IMG/VR virus record: IMGVR_UViG_3300025128_000135
Span: 1-37,316 of that record
DNA from: a virus
DNA: 37,316 nt
Reading direction: 5' to 3' (one strand)
This document shows positions 29,401 to 32,565 of the stretch, one piece after another; within the stretch, counting starts at the first letter, position 1, and every line of letters starts with the position of its first letter. Position numbers and translations under genes: made by a program. A model generated the notes under the pieces. It worked only from the letters and a program-made list of their open reading frames with translations. It was not told the origin of the DNA and made no database searches.

Positions 29401-30036
29401 ATGTCTTTCTTAGTAGCAAATGTACCACCCACAAAGGTGTTTGTAAAAAAACAATATCTCTATGATTTACAAAAAGGTCATGGTGAATTTGTAGAGGGAG
29501 TTTGGGTAACTTGTAAATCTATAGAAGGTAGGGCCTTATACTTTGAAACATATCTACCAGAATATGGAGCACTTTATGATAAACTTCCTATCTCTGCATT
29601 TGTATCAGAACCTACTGATTTAGATTTACCTTTAGAAGAATTAGAGTTATGGGATGCTTTTAGTTATCACATGACTGTGATTACAAAATCGAGCATCGCT
29701 GGTTGTAAGGCTAAATATCTAGCACCTTCTAAGTCTTGGTATACAGGTGAATATTTATTTACAGTCGATAATTGTCATTCTGACGTTAACACAATGAATA
29801 GTGGTTATTCTGAAATGCCAGAAGAACATAAATCATTTAATATATTAGGATTAGACAATAAACATTTTGCAGCTCAACCAAATAATCGTTGTTTATTTTT
29901 TGATAAATCACTAACACCTGCAAAATTAAAAGTTCCAGATTTTAAAGTGTCTACTATTGAATACAATGTGGAAACAGAAAGCAAATGGACAGCAGGAGAT
30001 GACGATCATTATTTTTATGATCTTAAAGAACAATGA
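29401..30036 (+). CDS. Conserved hypothetical protein following the polymerase
   Basis: A 211-residue protein that starts immediately after the polymerase stop. It begins FLVANVPPTKVFVKKQYLYD and has GHGEFVEGVWVTCKSIEGRA, YETYLPEYGALYDKLPI-like and WDAFSYHMTVI segments, then a KSWYTGEYLFTVDNCH motif and a C-terminal KVPDFKVSTIEYNVE. Proteins with this layout follow polymerase or primase genes in marine phages, but their function is not known. The immediate adjacency and the 4-nt overlap with the next gene suggest a replisome-linked role. Confidence 0.7.
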   Translation: MSFLVANVPPTKVFVKKQYLYDLQKGHGEFVEGVWVTCKSIEGRALYFETYLPEYGALYDKLPISAFVSEPTDLDLPLEELELWDAFSYHMTVITKSSIAGCKAKYLAPSKSWYTGEYLFTVDNCHSDVNTMNSGYSEMPEEHKSFNILGLDNKHFAAQPNNRCLFFDKSLTPAKLKVPDFKVSTIEYNVETESKWTAGDDDHYFYDLKEQ

Positions 30037-30968: not shown

Positions 30969-31107
30969 AGAGATAACAAGTAAAATGCCAAGAGATAAAG
31001 TGGAAGAACTTCTCATGGCTAGTCTCGAAGAAGTAAAACGTTTACTCAAACTTCTAAAAGATCATGGTTATGAAGACGAAGACATTGACGATAGGACCAT
31101 AAACTAA
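30937..31107 (+). CDS. Small helical hypothetical protein upstream of the methyltransferase
   Basis: A 56-residue protein from ATG 30937 to TAA 31105-31107. It is almost entirely helical and Lys/Leu/Glu-rich (LLDLKKLKEITSKMPRDKVE, then LMASLEEVKRLLKLLKDHG) with an acidic C-terminus. Its stop overlaps the start of the methyltransferase (TAATG) and its start lies within the previous gene. Tight overlaps on both sides support it. It may be a small coiled-coil regulator. Confidence 0.65.
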   Translation: MEKLLDLKKLKEITSKMPRDKVEELLMASLEEVKRLLKLLKDHGYEDEDIDDRTIN

Positions 31108-32147
31108 TGTATCAACACTTAGATTTATTTTCTGGAATAGGTGGTTTTAGTTTAGGATTAGAAGCAACAGGAGAATTTGAAACTGTTGCTTTCTGTGACT
31201 ACGATCCCTTTTGTCAAAAAGTATTAAGAAAACATTGGGAGAATGTTCCCATTTATGGAGATATAAAGGAACTTACATATGAAAAACTCAAAGCAAATGG
31301 AATTAATAACATCGACATCATCACAGGAGGATACCCTTGTCAACCTTTCTCCGTTGCAGGTAACAAAAAAGGTGAGCAAGATCCGAGACATCTCTGGCCA
31401 GAGTATTTTAGACTTGTCCAAGAGTGTCGACCGACTTGGGTTATTGGAGAAAACGTTGGTGGACACATTAAACTCGGTCTTGACACCGTACTCAAGGACT
31501 TGGAGAGTGAAGGTTACTCCGCAAGGACGTTTAGTATTTCAGCTTCTAGCATCGGTGCCAACCACAAAAGAGAAAGAGTCTGGATTGTGGCCAACTCCAA
31601 CGACAGACTCAGCAAACAATCGAACGAAGAAGTACGCACAGGGGGGAACACCTTTGACAATGGCAATTCAGACATGGCCAACTCCAACATCGAGAGATTG
31701 GAAGGATCAAATCGGAGCTTATCCTCCGAGCACGAACGTGACAAGAGGAGAGACTCTCATGAACACAGTGACGAGAAGATCATGGCCAACTCCAGCAGCG
31801 AGAGATTGGAAAGACACAGGAGAGAACACGAACTACGAGAAGATAGCGAAGAAGGGAAAGTTAGCAGGAGCAGTGAAGATGTGGCCAACTCCGAACGCAT
31901 CAGACAACAGGGACCGGGGAAACCTATCGGACCCAGCAATACAAAGACGAATAGCAATGGGAAAACAAGTTGGTTTAACCATGGCAGTGAAAGAAAAGAA
32001 GGGTGGTGGGACGTTGAACCCAACGTGGGTCGAGTGGCTCATGGGATACCCAACAGGGTGGACCGACTTAAGTCCCTCGGAAACAGCCTCATCCCTCACA
32101 TCCCCTACTACATCGGACAATCAATCATCCAATCAGAAAGAGAGTAA
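31107..32147 (+). CDS. dcm: C5-cytosine DNA methyltransferase
   Basis: A 346-residue protein with the main C5-methyltransferase motifs in order: LDLFSGIGGFSLGL (5-18, AdoMet site), CDYDPFC (II), GGYPCQPFSVAG (74-85, catalytic C78), ENVGGH (115-120), HKRERVWIVA (153-162), and a C-terminal LGNSLIPHIP (324-333) that closes the fold. Between motif VIII and the C-terminal motifs lies a ~130-residue region with repeated ANS-x-ERLE peptides where the target-recognition domain is expected. It should methylate cytosine in a short DNA target, probably to protect phage DNA from restriction. No partner endonuclease is recognised. A second reading frame overlaps most of it. Confidence 0.9.
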   Translation: MYQHLDLFSGIGGFSLGLEATGEFETVAFCDYDPFCQKVLRKHWENVPIYGDIKELTYEKLKANGINNIDIITGGYPCQPFSVAGNKKGEQDPRHLWPEYFRLVQECRPTWVIGENVGGHIKLGLDTVLKDLESEGYSARTFSISASSIGANHKRERVWIVANSNDRLSKQSNEEVRTGGNTFDNGNSDMANSNIERLEGSNRSLSSEHERDKRRDSHEHSDEKIMANSSSERLERHRREHELREDSEEGKVSRSSEDVANSERIRQQGPGKPIGPSNTKTNSNGKTSWFNHGSERKEGWWDVEPNVGRVAHGIPNRVDRLKSLGNSLIPHIPYYIGQSIIQSERE

Positions 32148-32154
32148 CAAATGA
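31279..32154 (+). CDS. Overlapping +1-frame gene nested in the methyltransferase (WPTP-repeat protein)
   Basis: An intact 291-codon frame lies in the +1 frame of the methyltransferase, from ATG 31279 to TGA 32152-32154. AAAGGAAC lies about 7 nt before the start. The product has four WPTP peptides (residues 104, 133, 169, 202) in repeated contexts such as WPTPTSRDWKD and WPTPAARDWKD, and a C-terminal LNPTWVEWLMGYPTGWTDL (246-264). This WPTP...NP-x-WVEWLMG-P-GWT pattern is the signature of a protein family that many phages encode beside or inside cytosine methyltransferase genes, usually annotated as a methylase-related protein. The stop forms ATGA with the next gene. The exact role is unknown; an accessory to target recognition is one possibility. 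Confidence 0.65.
   Translation: MKNSKQMELITSTSSQEDTLVNLSPLQVTKKVSKIRDISGQSILDLSKSVDRLGLLEKTLVDTLNSVLTPYSRTWRVKVTPQGRLVFQLLASVPTTKEKESGLWPTPTTDSANNRTKKYAQGGTPLTMAIQTWPTPTSRDWKDQIGAYPPSTNVTRGETLMNTVTRRSWPTPAARDWKDTGENTNYEKIAKKGKLAGAVKMWPTPNASDNRDRGNLSDPAIQRRIAMGKQVGLTMAVKEKKGGGTLNPTWVEWLMGYPTGWTDLSPSETASSLTSPTTSDNQSSNQKESNK
32118..32154. repeat. 37-bp direct repeat, copy 1
   Basis: The 37-bp sequence covers the last 10 codons of the methyltransferase and the start codon of the next gene. It occurs again at 32395-32431 with two mismatches (35 of 37 identical). Each copy contains the end of one gene, the shared GAAAGAGAGTAAC tract acting as stop and ribosome site, and the ATGA of the following gene. 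Confidence 0.9.
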
Positions 32155-32438
32155 TAAGTAAAACAGATTTAGCTATTAAGCGTCATAAATTAAAAAATAT
32201 TTTGGTTAAGTTAAAAGCTCAAGACGATACAGTTAAATGGCTACAAAAAAAGATCGAATACCTACAAAAAGATAATTCTGTAAATATAATTGAAGAAATT
32301 CAAAAATGGATTATTGAAGGAATTAACGTTAGGGCAGAGAAAAGAAAAGAGATTAATGAGACGTTAGATAATTTACCAAGAGTAAATTCAATATCAATCA
32401 ATCATCCAAACAGAAAGAGAGTAACGAATGAAATATAA
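32151..32438 (+). CDS. Coiled-coil hypothetical protein flanked by direct repeats
   Basis: A 95-residue protein, strongly helical and basic (DLAIKRHKLKNILVKLKAQD, then VKWLQKKIEYLQKDN and IIEEIQKWIIEGINVRAEKR). Its start overlaps the stop of the WPTP-repeat frame (ATGA). The last 10 or so residues lie inside the second 37-bp repeat, so the gene is bounded by the repeat on both sides. Its C-terminus therefore copies the C-terminus of the methyltransferase region at DNA level but in another frame. No family is recognised. Confidence 0.65.
   Translation: MISKTDLAIKRHKLKNILVKLKAQDDTVKWLQKKIEYLQKDNSVNIIEEIQKWIIEGINVRAEKRKEINETLDNLPRVNSISINHPNRKRVTNEI
32395..32431. repeat. 37-bp direct repeat, copy 2
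   Basis: This copy covers the end of the 32151 gene and the ATGA of the next gene at 32428. It matches 32118-32154 at 35 of 37 positions (a T/A and an A/G difference). The two copies are 277 bp apart, the length of one gene. Confidence 0.9.
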
Positions 32439-32565
32439 ATACGATCACATTATTAAGATATTAAAAGAAAGATATAATTGGACAAAGATACCTCTTATCG
32501 AAAAGAAACTAGAAGAAGATAAGTGGTGGGAAAAAATTCCTCACGGACCGAGTATGGGAGAATAG
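32428..32565 (+). CDS. Small hypothetical protein
   Basis: A 45-residue protein from ATG 32428 to TAG 32563-32565 (MKYKYDHIIKILKERYNWTK, then IPLIEKKLEEDKWWEKIPHG). Its start lies within the second direct repeat and overlaps the end of the previous gene by 11 nt. The next gene starts one base after its stop. The product is charged and Trp-rich. No family is recognised. Confidence 0.6.
   Translation: MKYKYDHIIKILKERYNWTKIPLIEKKLEEDKWWEKIPHGPSMGE

Follow-up and report, generated by a model that had tools for sequence, protein, structure and literature searches.

A gene nested in the +1 frame of a cytosine methyltransferase gene

The window (the whole stretch of DNA analysed, a virus record of 37,316 bases) carries two overlapping genes, alpha and beta, with genes for DNA polymerase, helicase and exonuclease among those nearby. 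Their features are as follows.

31107..32147, + strand: alpha, C5-cytosine DNA methyltransferase subunit with motifs I-VIII and X, 346 aa (PF00145, E 9e-46; phrog_363, E 2e-79)
31122..31148, + strand: alpha motif I, DLFSGIGGF (sequence; alignment with M.HhaI)
31265..31270, + strand: internal Shine-Dalgarno (SD) AAAGGA for beta, within alpha codons D-I-K-E-L (codon choice in relatives)
31279..32154, + strand: beta, nested +1-frame WPTP protein, 291 aa (phrog_1008, E 2e-41; nested ORF conserved)
31279..31587, + strand: beta N-terminal domain, residues 1-103, lying over alpha motifs IV-VIII (both frames constrained)
31326..31352, + strand: alpha motif IV, GGYPCQPFS, with catalytic Cys78 (PCQPFS invariant in 44 relatives; M.HhaI alignment)
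31563..31589, + strand: alpha motif VIII, HKRERVWIV, overlapping the first WPTP of beta (alignment)
31588..32013, + strand: four WPTP modules of beta, starting at 31588, 31675, 31783 and 31882, the presumed target-recognition region
31608..32021, + strand: alpha residues ~168-305, an unconstrained tether predicted to be disordered (omega-like ratio; pLDDT about 31)
32008..32070, + strand: beta motif IX, GTLNPTWVEWLMGYPTGWTDL (best motif IX match in the +1 frame)
32076..32129, + strand: alpha motif X, LGNSLIPHIPYYIGQSII, residues 324-341 (alignment with M.HhaI 298-318, weak alone; helices)

The original prediction had described a 291-codon open reading frame (31279-32154) in the +1 frame of the methyltransferase ORF (31107-32147), with its own start site, an ATGA overlap with the following gene, and four WPTP motifs and a WVEWLMGYPTGWTDL segment in its product, and all of these are present. 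AAAGGA lies 8 nt ahead of the ATG at 31279, the beta stop TGA (32152-32154) overlaps the ATG (32151) of the next ORF, and the product is made up of an N-terminal domain, the four WPTP modules and motif IX. The further claim that this is a conserved family rather than random sequence also held. When the synonymous codons of alpha were permuted while its protein was kept, the +1 frame remained open in none of 20,000 shuffles (9.4 stops expected from the shuffle mean, 0 seen; the +2 frame of alpha has 23), and the gene recurs in many phages and bacteria. Stops in the beta frame of relatives, named beforehand as evidence that would count against the gene, are absent from all 72 related loci. The +1 ORF is confirmed as a real gene nested in the methyltransferase gene.

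Codon choice at the internal SD is biased towards the SD itself. The lysine codon is AAG in all 61 distinct relatives, compared with 25% of other alpha lysines, and 53 of the 61 use GAG for the glutamate, compared with 34% elsewhere in alpha; the SD, the beta start codon and both frames are kept in relatives down to about 40% identity. Since the codons that form the SD within alpha are chosen for it, beta most likely initiates separately from alpha.

Adjacent to the pair, a 63-nt direct repeat (79% identical) occupies 32118-32180 and 32395-32457 of the window. Its first copy spans the alpha and beta stops and the next start, and its second the end of the next ORF and the start downstream of it; this suggests that ORF 32151-32438 was acquired via duplication or recombination. 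At 29401-30036, adjoining the DNA polymerase gene, the window matches phrog_3704, which carries the database label 'ferredoxin'.

Division of selection and of motifs between the frames

Alpha contains the PF00145 features expected of one catalytic fold, motifs I, IV (PCQ), VI (ENV) and VIII, as well as motif X after the variable region. It aligns with M.HhaI through motif VIII and then weakly at motif X. In the AlphaFold model residues 1-167 and 317-345 are confident, with helices at 317-327 and 331-345 coinciding with motif X, while residues 168-305 are disordered; a Foldseek search with the model returned M.HaeIII and M.HhaI as best matches. Motif IX, which canonical single-chain enzymes carry on the same polypeptide, has no match in alpha, its match falling in the +1 frame.

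The two frames are registered such that third codon positions of alpha are second positions of beta, and first positions of alpha are third positions of beta. Codon-position divergence was taken from 32 independent pairs of relatives as simple counts without correction for multiple hits. Upstream of the beta start alpha alone is constrained, with third-position divergence of ~0.28; in the first 300 nt that the two genes share it drops to 0.08-0.18, and both frames are constrained there. Past motif VIII the pattern inverts, so that first positions of alpha are free (0.25) and third positions diverge by about 0.1. In this middle region the omega-like ratio (non-synonymous to synonymous changes, scaled to expectation) is about 1.2 in the alpha frame and 0.29 in the beta frame; among close pairs the values are 1.6 and 0.13, respectively. 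Both frames are again constrained over the motif IX stretch, and alpha alone over motif X. From 5' to 3', selection thus acts on alpha, on both frames (motifs IV-VIII), on beta only, on both (motif IX) and on alpha (motif X). Because selection in the middle region acts on the beta frame, it is the middle of alpha that is a by-product of beta there and not the reverse, in agreement with the disorder of this part in the alpha model.

The excess constraint at synonymous sites of the methyltransferase, a test put forward in the original prediction, is therefore found in alpha. The accompanying claim of two conserved proteins encoded by nearly 870 nt stands over motifs IV-VIII (about 300 nt) and at motif IX (about 60 nt); it fails for the 400-odd nt between them, which are constrained in the WPTP frame only.

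To place motif IX, a matrix was built from 19 canonical C5-methyltransferases, enzymes that have this motif in frame. Of 139 nested loci, 130 have their best match in the beta frame, and its most frequent position is exactly 68 nt upstream of the LGN of alpha. The scores are modest and individually within the range of shuffled sequence, so it is the consistency of frame and position that constitutes the evidence. The WPTP region of beta is homologous to the stretch that separates motif VIII from motif IX in enzymes made as one chain. Such single chains, from Mycobacterium phage Martik and Gordonia phage Phinally, match both phrog_363 and phrog_1008, the latter only after motif VIII. Together with the loci described below in which motif X has moved into the beta frame, they weigh most in the argument that beta corresponds to the variable region of the enzyme plus its motif IX and carries an additional N-terminal domain, encoded across motifs IV-VIII. 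Pfam, NCBIfam and PADLOC hold no model for beta, a beta profile found no match among PDB sequences even at E 10, and the AlphaFold model of beta alone has low confidence (pLDDT 46).

Distribution, exceptional loci and module turnover

Counts of alpha and beta relatives are lower bounds. Fully nested or overlapping alpha/beta pairs, always in the +1 register, occur in at least 80 viral loci and in 78 of the 80 bacterial loci listed, across many phyla (the exceptions are L130 and L148). Both frames are open with a +1 offset in all 83 loci that have a match to each. The search of the beta product against phage sequences that had been proposed returned phrog_1008 (E 2e-41), with beta relatives in at least 223 of the 50,697 phage records searched. 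In the survey of bacterial loci beta is seen only overlapping alpha, and among PF00145 proteins of 14 bacterial genomes canonical C5-methyltransferases occur without beta, and alpha-type ones with it. The suggestion of a general phage strategy fits in that the arrangement recurs in many phages, but it is also found in bacteria and its principle was known from M.EcoHK31I. Annotation is uneven; both frames are annotated in Escherichia phage K1ind2, and several database records examined call only one of the two.

In three loci (L077, L130 and L160) alpha stops just past motif VIII and the beta-frame ORF continues through motif IX into motif X; with motif X moved into the beta frame, the tether frame closes. 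The original prediction had paired the methyltransferase with a distinct WPTP protein, and on these splits and the single chains the WPTP protein is instead the missing half of the same enzyme.

Several other loci depart from the common layout. In a Synergistaceae contig (L148, 1144-2774) alpha is interrupted near motif IV by a sequence that encodes an HNH-like protein and is probably a mobile intervening element. In a Eubacteriales contig (L102, 3153-3155) the alpha tether contains an in-frame stop that parts motifs I-VIII from X, which may be a real split, decay or an error. Long beta ORFs (577-601 aa) extend beyond the alpha stop in L078 and L080 (2501-4303) and in L075 (478-2208). Alpha of Mycobacterium phage AlpineSix (L200, 1579-2494) changes frame between motifs, giving two overlapping ORFs, and may have decayed or been split further. 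Five copies of one alpha/beta locus (L119, L121-L124), perhaps repeated prophages, lie at separate sites of a single Roseovarius chromosome assembly.

The variable region consists of tandem WPTP-type modules, four of them in the window. The 232 modules of 72 loci fall into 65 families, one of which occurs in 30 loci at differing positions and with 17 different successors. One close relative (L005) is 97% identical to the window elsewhere; the window's second module (108 nt) is absent from it, and a different module of 114 nt is inserted further on. Disruption of the frame had been considered for this pair (97% nucleotide identity and about 77% best-segment protein identity) and was rejected, the difference being a whole-module deletion plus an insertion. 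Close pairs differ by 26 large indels in total, every one of them within the WPTP region and most of them module-sized. This turnover matches, by sequence comparison, the behaviour expected of a target-recognition region, and suggests modular specificity: even near-identical phages differ by the gain, loss and recombination of modules as complete cassettes.

Interpretation and comparison with known systems

We consider it highly probable that this stretch encodes one C5-cytosine DNA methyltransferase as two polypeptides in different frames, on the plan of M.EcoHK31I. Alpha (frame 0) would supply motifs I-VIII, which form the SAM-binding and catalytic fold, together with motif X, the fold's C-terminal helix, and beta (frame +1, with its own ribosome-binding site and start) would supply an N-terminal domain, the variable WPTP target-recognition region and motif IX. 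The DNA-recognition part is probably encoded in the beta frame, and the middle of the alpha frame would be kept open solely to link motif X with the rest of alpha. The two chains presumably assemble as a single enzyme, needing both for activity, that would methylate phage DNA; most simply, the phage would benefit by protection of its DNA from host restriction.

Other accounts of the +1 ORF differ in how they read the same observations. It could be an untranslated by-product of codon use in alpha, ANSN-type repeats yielding WPTP in the +1 frame, and the two sets of repeats are indeed linked because VANSN/MANSN in alpha and WPTP in beta are read from the same nucleotides. Synonymous shuffles close the frame, however, the internal SD is under selection, the WPTP region is in frame within single-chain homologues, and in the middle region selection acts on beta and not on alpha, so that alpha is the by-product there. 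The by-product account, whose probability we regard as next to negligible, was rejected on the codon-position divergence, the shuffles and the selected SD. Programmed frameshifting from alpha would give one trans-frame enzyme with no internal initiation, and a +1 followed by a -1 shift would restore the canonical order of motifs I-VIII, variable region, IX and X. Conservation of the beta start codon, selection on the SD and constraint on beta residues upstream of the junction instead favour a separately initiated protein; frameshifting was rejected and appears very unlikely.

Beta might also be a separate protein whose function (e.g. as an inhibitor or DNA-binding factor) is unrelated to the methyltransferase that it overlaps. 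In favour of this, the beta N-terminal domain is without a known relative in Pfam, NCBIfam or PDB sequences. Against it, beta is seen only overlapping alpha, the motif IX match is in beta and none is in alpha, and the splits and single-chain fusions place the beta region between motifs VIII and X, which together make a separate function improbable.

Within the divided-enzyme interpretation, the WPTP modules may form a combinatorial target-recognition array in which phage recombination swaps cassettes and alters methylation specificity, a proposal to which we give slightly less than an even chance. The cassettes would be about 30-50 residues long and bounded by conserved GTGGCCAACTCC-type DNA sequence readable in both frames, and the alpha tether, because it is unconstrained, would tolerate any module.

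The locus offers a clear and testable example of a single enzyme shared between overlapping frames, in which alignments show the selected stretch of each, within a large family often half-annotated in databases. It suggests that searches for the target-recognition domain of such methyltransferases have looked in the wrong frame, and that swaps of WPTP modules may allow phages to re-programme methylation. The principle of the split enzyme was already known from M.EcoHK31I and beta is annotated in some phages; this work adds the way in which selection is divided, the assignment of the recognition region to beta and the shuffling of modules. A search of the accessible literature found no general description of nested phage methyltransferase pairs, which does not prove that none exists.

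The beta subunit of M.EcoHK31I is also encoded within alpha in a different frame, and on that definition the window pair, with its small subunit nested in the large one, has the same layout. M.EcoHK31I is a C5-methyltransferase (YGGCCR) with motifs I-VIII and X on the larger polypeptide and motif IX on the smaller (PMC3404938), a distribution that the window pair shares. The title of the original paper, as it stands in the reference list of PMC3404938, states that both polypeptides are required in vitro. The target-recognition domain of M.EcoHK31I is predicted in its alpha (PMC3404938), which speaks against the placement proposed here, although it is a prediction and does not define that type of enzyme. 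In the window this domain is assigned to beta, in the form of several WPTP modules, on the grounds of selection and homology, and none is found in the large subunit, whose middle is unconstrained and disordered. A search for the M.EcoHK31I sequence via plasmid relatives returned prophage-like solitary methyltransferases and not the restriction-modification system.

M.AquI (CYCGRG) is a two-polypeptide C5-methyltransferase split within the region after motif VIII (PMC3404938). Its small subunit carries motif IX as well as motif X, whereas X stays with alpha in the window. A split of the M.AquI type occurs in L077, L130 and L160, and gp77/gp76 of phage Commander are of this kind. Paenibacillus phage Shelly (g55/g56) and its sister phages carry a homologous nested pair (alpha 35% and beta 32% identical to those of the window), annotated as a DNA-cytosine methyltransferase and a 'g55 internal gene' without described function; Shelly beta is shorter, ends about 150 nt ahead of the alpha stop and has fewer WPTP modules. 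The Martik and Phinally enzymes share their catalytic part with the window pair and differ in being a single polypeptide in a single frame, which runs from motifs I-VIII through xPTP repeats and an EWMM-type motif IX to motif X.
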